Origin: Candidatus Gastranaerophilales bacterium
GTDB taxonomy: Bacteria > Cyanobacteriota > Vampirovibrionia > Gastranaerophilales > Gastranaerophilaceae
Length of the DNA: 32,332 nt
Reading direction: 5' to 3'
Assembly: GCA_944325905.1 (NCBI GenBank)
Contig: CALVBY010000001.1
Span: 95,873-128,204, forward strand
Of the stretch, positions 1 to 2,503 are shown piece by piece. The notes below the pieces were generated by a model. It saw only the letters and a list, made by a program, of their open reading frames with translations, made no database searches and was not told the origin of the DNA. Position 1 is the first letter of the stretch, and each line of letters starts with the position of its first letter. Made by a program: the position numbers and the translations under genes.

Positions 1-1
1 T

Positions 2-145
2 ATAACGGCATTGATAGTTATGAAACAAGGCTACCGCTCAATTATAGTAGGCTATACATATGCGCTAAGCGAATATTATAATAGCTGGACCAATTTTTTA
101 AGAGAAACTAACGACGAAGAATTTGAACTTCCTGAAAATATATAA
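2..145 (+). CDS. C-terminal fragment of an unrecognised protein, cut by the window edge
   Basis: An open frame enters from the left edge and ends with TAA at 143-145, giving about 47 residues. The tail is acidic and ends ELPENI. I recognise no family. After the stop, the same frame stays open for another 42 codons to a TAA at 272-274 and still reads like protein, including RYYIEMDSKF. The TAA may therefore be a disabling mutation in a longer gene, or the end of one gene with an unrelated open stretch behind it. It lies in the accessory DNA left of tRNA-Phe. Without the upstream part, neither reading frame nor function can be confirmed. Confidence 0.3.
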   Translation: MTALIVMKQGYRSIIVGYTYALSEYYNSWTNFLRETNDEEFELPENI

Positions 146-624
146 AACAATACTCTAAAACTTCAGTATATAACAGCTGTGGCGCGCTACTACATAGAAA
201 TGGATTCAAAGTTCCCAAAAATGAGAATTGGCCTGCAGGTTATGAATACCCGTATTAACCTAATTTCAGAATAACAAAAATGCATTCAAGATACTAAGAG
301 CAGTAATAATAAAAACCCGTTCATGTCAATCTAAATCAATTTAGAGGACGTTTTATACAAAACAATTGAGTATTGTTTTGCGAGAGGGCAAGGCGCAGAC
401 CTTGCTCCGTGTAAAAGAACAACCAGTTTAGGAATATTTGACAACAAGTTCGGGGTTTTTGGGACAGATAAATTTAGAAACTTTAACTAATATAATAAAT
501 TTGAGATTAAAAAGGAGCAAATTTATTTTTTAGAGCGTATTGTAAAATTTTTTAATGAAAATAACAAAAAAAAAATTTGCAGTTTTTATATCTTCATATA
601 CTACAAAAGAGGAGAAATTAATAA
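146..624. other. Gene-poor accessory stretch between two hypothetical ORFs
   Basis: No convincing gene was found. The stretch holds a 52-bp double-hairpin repeat (358-409). A short plus-strand open frame runs across the repeat and ends at about 488. It has no good start codon or ribosome-binding site, so I do not call it. The last 100 bases are very A/T-rich and lead into the ribosome-binding site of the gene at 625. An arm pair TAAATTTG/CAAATTTA near 495-525 could form a weak hairpin, but no clear promoter was recognised. Confidence 0.5.
358..409. repeat. 52-bp double-hairpin repeat, copy 1
   Basis: This 52-bp unit is identical to 1601-1652 and nearly identical to 1741-1791. It contains two inverted repeats. 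The first is CAAAACAAT/ATTGTTTTG around a 5-nt loop TGAGT. The second is GCAAGG/CCTTGC around CGCAGA. Flanking sequence differs from that of the other copies, so the repeated block ends sharply at CAAAAC on one side and CTCCG on the other. This is the only copy not attached to a tRNA-Phe fragment. Confidence 0.85.
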
Positions 625-1179
625 ATGAAAATAGACAATAATTACACGCAAAGACAACAAAATTTTGGTAGATTGAAATCTATAACATACAAAAGGCATT
701 TTAATCCTGATCTTTACCCTGAAGAATTTGCAGAAGTTTTGAATACTATCAAAGAATCAAAAGCTTTCAATGAATTTTTCAAACAGTATGATGTAGATAT
801 GTGTTTTTATGAGGAGGAAGGTCTTCTCACGGGGGAAGGTCTTCTCAAGAAGGACCATATTTACATGATGTTAAAAACAACAGTTCCAAAAACTAAAGGT
901 AACAAATTGTGTCCAACATTATATTTAGGTGCCGATCAGGGACTTGATGAACCAATATGTTCCACTTATACTCTGTTTAATAGATTAATCCAAAAAATTA
1001 AAAACATAGAATTTTCAGATTTAAAATATAAACTTGATGATGCATTAAAAGAATTGGAAGAGAATGAGAAAAAGAAAAACGCTAGAATAAATGTTGATAA
1101 GATTACAAATAGTCTCCTTTCACCAGAAAAACCTGAAAAGAAAACTTTCTTTGAAAAACTATTTGGCAGGTTAAAATAA
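625..1179 (+). CDS. Hypothetical protein, 184 aa, accessory region
   Basis: I recognise no family. The start is well supported by GAGGAG about 9 nt upstream of ATG 625. There is no signal peptide or membrane segment, so it is probably cytoplasmic. The N-terminus is polar and contains QQNFGRL. The middle is mixed alpha/beta. From about residue 130 the chain is lysine- and glutamate-rich and likely helical (KELEENEKKKN), ending in a basic tail (FFEKLFGRLK). Residues 65-76 contain EGLLTGEGLL, encoded by an 18-nt tandem duplication (816-847), so the gene may be changing quickly. It sits alone between repeats beside tRNA-Phe, which suggests an acquired gene. A real gene is likely; its function is unknown. 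Confidence 0.7.
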   Translation: MKIDNNYTQRQQNFGRLKSITYKRHFNPDLYPEEFAEVLNTIKESKAFNEFFKQYDVDMCFYEEEGLLTGEGLLKKDHIYMMLKTTVPKTKGNKLCPTLYLGADQGLDEPICSTYTLFNRLIQKIKNIEFSDLKYKLDDALKELEENEKKKNARINVDKITNSLLSPEKPEKKTFFEKLFGRLK

Positions 1180-1545
1180 TTAACACTTCTTGTAGAGTTT
1201 CGTAGGTCGTTTTAGTAAAACCGACCTAAATTATATTTCCAAGTAAATTGAAATAGACTTCCACCTAAATTTAAAATTTTGAAAAATTTTTTAACACTGT
1301 CCTGTTCCAAGAATTCCGAACTGTGTCTAAATTCCCGCCATTTAAGGTTTTAAGGCACTGTTTAGTTTTAGACATTGACGAACAGTAATCGGACTTTTTT
1401 GCCAGTTCAGGAATTTCATTTTTAGCAAATTCCGACTAAAAAAATCAAAATATATTTGAAACACAGCCCTATTGGTTCAAAAAAATCAAATTTCTGCATT
1501 GTCTGTTCATCAATACCAAAGCTCATTTTTGGGGACGAAACCCAT
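1180..1545. other. Gene-poor spacer with a hairpin downstream of the 184-aa gene
   Basis: No gene called. Positions 1203-1228 can fold as TAGGTCG/CGACCTA with an inner TTTT/AAAA extension and one bulge. No U-run follows, so it is at best a weak terminator for the gene ending at 1179. A 34-codon minus-strand open frame (1526 down to 1422) lacks support. The part from about 1519 resembles a decayed copy of the 138-bp tandem unit that follows (GCTCATTTTT, then CACTC, then a TAAAAAAA run). Confidence 0.45.
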
Positions 1546-1600
1546 CACTCTTTTTAACTGACTACCTAAAAAAATAGTGCCGCAACTCACTCTGCCGCAG

Positions 1601-1652
1601 CAAAACAATTGAGTATTGTTTTGCGAGAGGGCAAGGCGCAGACCTTGCTCCG
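1601..1652. repeat. 52-bp double-hairpin repeat, copy 2
   Basis: Identical over 52 bp to 358-409. It lies inside the first 138-bp tandem unit, preceded by CTGCCGCAG and followed by AGTTAAGGCTC and a T-run. Both stems are perfect: a 10-bp GCAAAACAAT/ATTGTTTTGC counting the preceding G, and a 6-bp GCAAGG/CCTTGC. Confidence 0.85.
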
Positions 1653-1740
1653 AGTTAAGGCTCATTTTTTTTTGCAGAAAATTCACTCATTTTTAAATTA
1701 ACCACCTAAAAAAAATGGTGCCGCAACTCACTCTGCCGAG

Positions 1741-1791
1741 CAAAACAATTAAGTATTGTTTTGCGAGAGGGCAAGGCTCGACCTTGCTCCG
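1741..1791. repeat. 51-bp double-hairpin repeat, copy 3
   Basis: Lies inside the second 138-bp tandem unit. It differs from the other two copies only in the loops: TAAGT instead of TGAGT in hairpin 1, and CTCGA instead of CGCAGA in hairpin 2. Both stems are unchanged, which suggests the folded form matters. Confidence 0.85.
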
Positions 1792-1853
1792 AGTTAAGGC
1801 TCATTTTTTTTGCAGAAAATTCACTCATTTTTAAATTAACCACCTAAAAAAAA

Positions 1854-1929
1854 TGGTGCCGCAACTCGGAATTGAACCAAGGACACAGGGATTTTCAGTC
1901 CCTTGCTCTACCAACTGAGCTATTGCGGC
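1854..1929 (-). tRNA. tRNA-Phe (anticodon GAA)
   Basis: Read on the minus strand, the 76-nt gene folds as a full cloverleaf. The acceptor stem is GCCGCAA/TTGCGGC with discriminator A and an encoded CCA. The D-arm contains AGCTCAGTTGGTAGAGC. The anticodon stem AGGGA/TCCCT holds loop CTGAAAA, so the anticodon is GAA. The T-loop is GGTTCAATTCC. A run of eight T follows the CCA directly. Downstream (lower coordinates) come tandem repeats that copy its last 14 nt. Upstream is infC on the same strand, about 80 bp away. Confidence 0.97.
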
Positions 1930-2011: not shown

Positions 2012-2503
2012 TTATTGAGGTCCCAAATACAATGTAACGTTTCTGCCTTCAAGCATAGGCTTCTTTTCAATTTGCAAAGGAGCATCTTTTAAATCTTCAA
2101 TAAATCTGTTTGCCAATCCAAAAGCAAGCTCACTATGCTGCATTTCACGTCCACGCAACATAATAACGATTTTAACCTTATTACCTTGCGAAATAAACTT
2201 TTTAATATTATTAATACGAACCTGATAGTCATGGGTATCGATTTTATATCTTACCTTAACTTCTTTAACTTCAACAACATGCTGTTTTTTCTTAGCTTCT
2301 TTAGCACGTTTTTCAAGTTCGTACTTATATTTTCCATAATTTAATATCTTTGCAACAGGAGGTTCTTGGTTAGGACTTATCAATACCAAATCCAGATCGG
2401 CATCATATGCCATTTGTAAAGCCTTTGAAGTCGGCACAACCCCATGATTAGTACCATTGTCGTCAATTAATCTGACTTCTTTTGAGCGAATACGCTCGTT
2501 CAT
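2012..2503 (-). CDS. infC: Translation initiation factor IF-3
   Basis: IF-3 binds the 30S subunit, keeps it apart from 50S and checks start codon-initiator tRNA pairing. The 163-aa chain has the N-terminal domain signature NERIRSKEVRLIDDNG and the LVLISPNQEPPVAKILNYGKYKYELEKR linker region (quoted in parts: residues about 38-66). A C-terminal domain follows with EVKVRYKIDTHDYQVR and ends NVTLYLGPQ. The start given is the first ATG, with AAGGA 10 nt upstream. An ATT directly before this ATG sits 7 nt from the same AAGGA. An in-frame ATA at 2539 has a better AAGGAG 8 nt upstream and would add 12 residues. infC genes often use such non-AUG codons for autoregulation. No rpmI or rplT follows, which departs from the usual infC-rpmI-rplT operon. 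Confidence 0.97.
   Translation of the reverse strand: MNERIRSKEVRLIDDNGTNHGVVPTSKALQMAYDADLDLVLISPNQEPPVAKILNYGKYKYELEKRAKEAKKKQHVVEVKEVKVRYKIDTHDYQVRINNIKKFISQGNKVKIVIMLRGREMQHSELAFGLANRFIEDLKDAPLQIEKKPMLEGRNVTLYLGPQ

Follow-up and report, generated by a model that had tools for sequence, protein, structure and literature searches.

The window, the whole stretch of DNA analyzed here (32,332 nucleotides), covers positions 95873 to 128204 of contig C1 in a 1.6-Mb draft genome. Its IF-3 relatives place the genome with Candidatus Gastranaerophilales, an order of uncultured gut bacteria. Three of its genes frame the segment described below.

1 to 145, plus strand: 3' portion of a gene for a TolC-like outer-membrane efflux protein (433 aa, starting left of the window; from the ORFs)
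1854 to 1929, minus strand: tRNA-Phe (gaa), intact, with the CCA encoded (Rfam tRNA, 70.9 bits)
2012 to 2503, minus strand: translation initiation factor IF-3, a conserved neighbor (Pfam IF3_N and IF3_C)

In the 10 kb that flank the window on its left, a dxs-like ORF precedes the TolC-like gene; both labels were read from the sequences and not from a profile search. The TolC-like gene is syntenic with tRNA-Phe at L039, L040, L043, L046, L062, L260, and L261, and 73 of the 80 IF-3 loci of relatives contain tRNA-Phe. The TolC-like and dxs-like genes are conserved neighbors that form the left border of a variable segment, and their presence indicates that the left side is core synteny with a variable insert rather than an island. 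A preliminary description of this DNA had noted no core gene to the left of the tRNA and had taken positions 1 to 1850 to fit an inserted element. Both points have to be revised: positions 1 to 145 are conserved, and the insertion is limited to 410 to 1515, so that the segment from 1 to 1850 is not shared as a whole by all relatives. An Rfam scan matched no family other than tRNA.

The strongest repeat in the window by far lies directly beside the tRNA, where Tandem Repeats Finder (TRF) reports an array at 1545 to 1867 with a period of 138, 2.3 copies, 93% matches, and a score of 562. The reverse complement of the last 14 nt of tRNA-Phe (TGGTGCCGCAACTC) occupies 1854 to 1867, and the array contains the following parts.

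About 360 to 409, plus strand: left half of the third (outermost) unit, made up of the remainder of a hairpin element and a second hairpin and ending in CTCCG (identity to unit 1)
1516 to 1588, plus strand: right half of the third unit, with a tRNA-end copy, TAGTGCCGCAACTC, at 1575 to 1588 (sequence match)
1589 to 1630, plus strand: hairpin element, copy 1 (ACTCTGCCGCAGCAAAACAATTGAGTATTGTTTTGCGAGAGG; repeat search)
1631 to 1664, plus strand: second hairpin GCAAGG..CCTTGC, then TCC and GAGTTAAGGC, the strand with which the unit closes on its tRNA-end copy, with a T run after it (fold)
1716 to 1729, plus strand: exact copy of the tRNA-Phe end, TGGTGCCGCAACTC (sequence match)
1730 to 1770, plus strand: hairpin element, copy 2 (model R1, 68.5 bits, E = 6e-13)
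1771 to 1803, plus strand: the second hairpin of unit 2 and the strand that closes the unit; a T run follows (fold)

As first described, the 14-nt tRNA-Phe end thus recurs within the 138-bp tandem, once exactly and once with a single change (1575 to 1588, TAGTGCC...). Units 1 and 2 have 123 of 128 alignment columns in common, and the recurrence of the tRNA-Phe end is not due to chance. Older copies had also been suspected as far out as about position 1519. They are real but represent more than decay, because 1516 to 1588 is the right half of a third unit. Its left half, in which 50 nt are letter-identical to unit 1, lies on the other side of the inserted segment, and joining the left flank (353 to 410) to 1516 to 1588 yields a whole third unit with a diverged right part. 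That left half and the 41-nt hairpin that makes up most of the unit had both been overlooked.

In predicted folds, the whole unit forms a three-way structure closed by the tRNA-end copy, with fold z scores of −3.45 for unit 2 (1715 to 1800) and −2.41 for 1574 to 1663. Each 138-bp unit comprises, in order, the A-rich DNA adjoining the tRNA, the outer end of tRNA-Phe, the 41-nt hairpin, the second hairpin, and the re-closing strand, with a predicted miniature tRNA-like fold.

A genome search with the array found copies of a core of about 42 nt elsewhere in the window genome. The hairpin element has a length of about 41 to 42 nt and the form ACTCTGCCGA-stem-GAGAGG, in which ACTCTGCCGA and GAGAGG are near-invariant and the stem is variable. 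Among 31 distinct copies, changes occur on both sides in 8 of 13 pairs. The covariation score is 0.329, compared with 0.158 for shuffled copies (none of 500 shuffles reached it), and it is lost once the pairing partner is shifted, a control that is biased toward structure because the structure was derived from these same sequences. A reading of the conserved GA/GA internal loop as a kink-turn was dropped, since many of the contexts of the element place it antisense to the tRNA.

The element is widespread in the order. The first search found the core in 21 of 40 relatives, and the covariance model R1 found 1 to 50 copies per genome in 26 of the 40. When R1 was applied to 192 genomes of the order, 167 had matches. 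A phylum-wide sample of 244 genomes contained 105 with matches; all 105 belong to the order, and none was detected outside it. There were likewise no matches in the viral collections IMG/VR (searched by exact pattern) and INPHARED, and a phage or viral origin of the hairpin was rejected on that basis. We found no literature on Gastranaerophilales repeats or half-tRNA arrays. Some copies sit within palindromes of another kind (TCATYCTGAG..GAAGRATCT). Some of the genomes are rich in these BIME-like palindromes: G007, G011, G072, and G133 have 66 to 157 of them per genome, often as opposite pairs, and in some genomes a few bear the hairpin element as an apical stem. A shared sequence of about 200 nt (GACGGCTTGCGAAGCAAGACTAG..) is also inserted in the loop of an element (L164:819-1079) and directly after one (L175:1062-1263).

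The usual setting of the hairpin element is within a truncated copy of a tRNA end, near an intact tRNA of the same kind and in one polarity. Its left flank is the outer end of the tRNA, usually to position 10 to 14 (to 26 for Ile); on its right flank there is either a continuation of the tRNA after a gap of a few bases or a second hairpin. Copies upstream of the tRNA are sense and involve the D arm (Pro, Val, Ile, Leu with the anticodons UAG, GAG, and CAG, and some Met), the Ile copies having the element near the anticodon arm, and copies downstream of the tRNA are antisense and involve the T arm (Phe, His, Gln, Glu, Arg, Leu with the anticodon CAA, and other Met). In the first sample, 61 of 84 copies had a tRNA within 1.5 kb, and it was on the right in all 61. 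In the second, which consisted of the best-scoring covariance-model matches, a tRNA lay within 600 bp on the right of 55 of 92 copies, on the left of 10, and on both sides of 6, the last because of tRNA clusters; about 4% per side would be expected from the tRNA density (56 tRNAs in the 902 kb of that sample). At tRNA-Leu(UAG) in L142, L163, and L169, the units are placed after a conserved TTGACA..TATAGAT-like promoter and before the tRNA and may be transcribed as a tRNA leader.

Comparison of the locus in relatives, as had been proposed, revealed variation in both the presence and the number of units. Only a minority of the 73 relatives with tRNA-Phe in the locus have units there, in differing numbers and of two types, and the close relatives L038, L044, and L046 have none. 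Five near-identical tandem units at tRNA-Leu in L163 and four in L172 point to recent amplification, with the proviso that unit numbers are uncertain because these are metagenome assemblies in which many copies lie at contig ends. Units may be gained and lost by slippage or by unequal crossing-over between direct repeats, with the hairpins helping, and selection would keep an intact tRNA at the inner end of the array. No intermediate of gain or loss was caught among the loci compared.

The segment that separates the two halves of the third unit has the parts of a small transposon.

405 to 409, no strand: presumed 5-bp target duplication, left copy, CTCCG (flank shared with the right flank of L045)
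410 to 1515, plus strand: putative non-autonomous transposon, 1.1 kb, of a tRNA-targeting group in the Mu/Tn7 superfamily (ends shared with many loci)
410 to 577, plus strand: left-end module (75 to 91% identical copies beside tRNA-Phe and elsewhere)
625 to 1179, plus strand: cargo ORF, 184 aa (ORF list)
1231 to 1515, plus strand: right-end module, facing the tRNA (shared right ends)

Positions 411 to 577 and 1231 to 1509 recur beside tRNA-Phe in other species with 74 to 95% identity, and the ORFs between them differ. The left end (TGTAAAAGAACAACC) and the right end (CAATGTCTGTTCA..ATA, or TATCATTGAACAGACATTGCAGG as the reverse complement) are imperfect inverted repeats of each other, and both have similar GACAG..GGAATTTT motifs, which were identified by eye only. 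The boundaries of the transposon are thus TGTAAAAG...ATA and not the tRNA-Phe 14-mer. This right end recurs in G012 (L045) with CTCCGAGTTAAGG directly after it, consistent with a CTCCG duplication that pairs with the left flank in the window; the right copy of that duplication is not visible in the window, where CCAAA stands instead. Matching 5-bp duplications were found in two elements (TTGGC in L088/L323 and GCTCT in L314, a composite). Several other tested end pairs had no matching 5-bp duplication, some of them because the copies are nested or tandem. The cargo ORF has no Pfam or NCBIfam match, and its homologs occur in a few relatives with 34 to 47% identity. A Pfam scan of the window ORFs found neither a transposase nor a TnsC/TniB-like ATPase inside 410 to 1515; at best, the window copy could be a non-autonomous derivative.

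Surveyed across 192 genomes of the order, the right-end module is present in 53, which represent 17 of 45 genera and extend to another family (at 89%). A tRNA (Phe, Met, Asn, or Gln) lies within 400 bp to the right of 27 of 48 distinct right ends, with its 3' end facing the module in all 27, and none of the 48 has a tRNA within 800 bp on the left; the other 21 have no tRNA within 400 bp. The right ends therefore reveal oriented insertion downstream of a conserved gene (27 of 48 on one side versus 0 of 48 on the other).

Genes for a possible transposition machinery occur in relatives. L311 (tRNA-Met) and L312 (tRNA-Gln) each have a transposase gene that begins about 300 bp in from the right end; these are the only two loci at which the module was found near a transposase. 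The homologous transposase in L325 (G094) has Mu-transpos_C (2.6e-15) and rve domains, and a gene for a TniB-like ATPase (3.7e-11) adjoins it. The nearest PDB chains of these proteins include TnsB and TnsC/MuB, with weak matches (E = 0.003 for TnsB and 2e-5 for TnsC) that place them at the superfamily level only. Mu-transpos_C proteins are found in 21 of 40 relatives, and there are three in the genome of the window. Of 20 stretches around transposase genes, 13 contain a tRNA, and in all 13 the transposase gene is on the 3' side of the tRNA and co-directional with it. The ORF beside tniB in L325 had no Pfam or NCBIfam match. No genes for TniQ/TnsD, TnsA, or Cas proteins were identified among the individual genes inspected.

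Taken together, the locus probably consists of a tandem, tRNA-derived hairpin array beside tRNA-Phe and a cargo-only TnsB/TnsC-type (Mu/Tn7 superfamily) transposon that lies in its outermost unit. Mobile DNA very commonly inserts at tRNA genes. The tRNA-facing right ends, the duplications, and the TnsB/TnsC-like genes in relatives point to a genuine hotspot of integration at a tRNA, with a DDE transposon as the integrating element. The idea of a hotspot, put forward in the preliminary description, is thereby retained, for integration of the element here and of its relatives at tRNA-Phe elsewhere and also for duplication, but not with a tyrosine recombinase as the maker of the array. The transposon group would insert on the downstream side of tRNA genes, its right end facing the tRNA, presumably by recognizing the tRNA in some way, and in the window it would have entered the outermost unit; the window copy may have been mobilized in trans. 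The array is a tandem repeat of hairpin units for which we infer an origin from tRNA.

Among known systems, Tn7-like elements, including those of cyanobacteria, have tRNA attachment sites, 5-bp duplications, and controlled orientation (PMC11406308; PMC10293859). Such sites are used by the cyanobacterial type I-B2, I-D, and V-K CAST groups (PMC11406308), and CyCAST inserts 30 to 33 nt downstream of tRNA-Leu (PMC10293859). The elements described here resemble tRNA-attaching Tn7-like transposons in the TnsB/TnsC-type genes of relatives, the 5-bp duplication seen in two elements, the fixed orientation, and the insertion downstream of a tRNA gene. However, the window copy has a length of only 1.1 kb, no transposase, and one cargo ORF, its right terminus is ATA rather than ACA, and, unlike that of CyCAST, the insertion distance ranges from 38 to 340 bp and several tRNAs are used. 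By analogy, the window element fits a candidate cargo-only member of a Tn7-like type of group. MuA/MuB of phage Mu and IstA/IstB of IS21 are relatives of TnsB/TnsC that likewise pair a DDE transposase with a small AAA+ partner, and phage Mu and IS21 are not known to target tRNAs. No target selector has been reported for IS21 (PMC10293859).

The units might instead be neither parasites nor by-products of slippage but a selected functional RNA or DNA element of tRNA operons, such as a bidirectional terminator, a processing or attenuation element, or a decoy. This is unlikely, although several features are in keeping with it: the stem has compensatory changes, the second hairpins vary in sequence with folding kept, the same tRNA isotypes are adjoined across genera, and a T run follows the closing strand. 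However, units are absent at tRNA-Phe in most relatives, copies also occur within unrelated dispersed palindromes, and mutation processes acting on DNA can also keep hairpins. Furthermore, a single RNA function would hardly cover both the D-arm copies, which have the sense orientation of their tRNA, and the T-arm copies, which are antisense to theirs.

It is a speculative, and in our judgment unlikely, extension of the transposon reading that the tRNA-end units are tRNA-derived hairpin elements of a new class, with an additional role as decoy landing sites for tRNA-targeting Tn7-like transposons. The transposons would then enter beside partial tRNA copies and not beside the real gene. This idea is drawn from one locus, that in the window, which would be its first example and where the right end is about 60 bp from a partial tRNA copy and 339 bp from the real tRNA.

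Small dispersed repeats of cyanobacteria, reportedly described by Elhai in 2008, share with the element their nature as short dispersed hairpins. The same is true of REP/BIME palindromes with RAYTs, which are sometimes found within other repeats (PMC3733652, PMC3116915), and a REP-type palindrome that a Y1 (RAYT/IS200) transposase mobilizes through its single-stranded hairpin would match the element in size and shape. Y1_Tnp genes occur in 16 of 40 relatives, one lies inside a tRNA-Phe unit in G010/G011, and another adjoins the tRNA-Gln unit of G020. Nevertheless, we regard this origin as distinctly improbable. In contrast to REP/BIME repeats, the element lacks the GTAG/CGTC tag at its foot, where the bases before the hairpin vary and the element begins with ACTCTGCCGA; it is also strongly tied to tRNA-end copies and has one polarity. 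Y1_Tnp was not found in the draft genomes G009, G024, and G002, which have 5 to 17 copies each, and RAYT was rejected as the mover because its presence does not track copy number. The Y1_Tnp genes that adjoin units have other palindromes of their own. Finally, the copies have no strand bias relative to GC skew, a result that also speaks against single-strand insertion on one replication strand and comes from a test that is weak because the skew is small. The RAYT-like gene in the tRNA-Phe units of G011 (L261:330-903) and G010 (L260:6369-6990) is antisense and has a GTTGGGCA..TGCCCAAC palindrome on one side. That of G020 (L267:1565-2405) is flanked by GTAGGGTGCAAT palindromes and lies about 120 bp from the tRNA-Gln hairpin unit.

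The preliminary description had attributed the array to tyrosine recombinases, that is, to an island that was repeatedly integrated at and excised from the tRNA-Phe 3' end, with the 14-mers as att remnants. In its favor, attB sites classically lie at tRNA 3' ends, and the 14-mer has an exact second copy. However, inspection by eye of the ORFs in the left-hand 10 kb revealed no integrase, and none was found in the Pfam-scanned ORFs of the window. The boundaries of the inserted DNA, 410 and 1515, fall within a unit; its ends differ from the 14-mer, and it is not flanked on both sides by an identical tRNA 3' end. The unit is dominated by a dispersed hairpin that, with tRNA ends, also occurs beside many other tRNAs and even upstream of the 5' end. 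This explanation is largely refuted and retains very little probability. Simple tandem duplication of the tRNA flank without a mobile history, with 410 to 1515 as unrelated old DNA, has just as little to recommend it: tandem duplication clearly contributes, as units 1 and 2 differ at few positions, but the dispersal of the hairpin over the order contradicts it as a full account, and the ends of 410 to 1515 match at other tRNAs in other genera.

The array that probably received the transposon resembles the rtT repeats of Escherichia coli tyrT, tandem units of 100 to 200 bp at one tRNA-Tyr operon, each with the 3' end of the neighboring tRNA; the units in the window are also tandem and each has the end of the neighboring tRNA. 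In contrast to rtT, which is confined to one operon, the units here share an order-wide hairpin core, involve many isotypes, and use both tRNA ends, and RtT had no Rfam match at the gathering score. The order-wide tRNA-end hairpin represents a natural system for asking why partial tRNA copies build up beside tRNA genes and whether they shape transposon landing. tRNA-homing Tn7-like elements are of interest as insertion tools, and the locus points to a compact tRNA-homing TnsB/TnsC group in a gut lineage, with cargo-only copies that bear single genes.

Other cargo-like genes beside tRNA-Phe in other species (L089:5086-6693, L055:5254-7893, and L060:4496-7178) encode small proteins with an N-terminal NFxG-type motif, one of which has an ADP-ribosyltransferase exoenzyme domain (PF03496) and one of which is kinase-like. 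In G094, a 1205-aa gene resembling those of DNA methylases or restriction enzymes (L325:9932-13549) lies between the transposon right end and tRNA-Met. We also found pairs of Mu-transpos_C genes about 3.7 kb apart in G024:C2, G012:C17, and G035:C1, which perhaps represent two elements or an element with two transposases.
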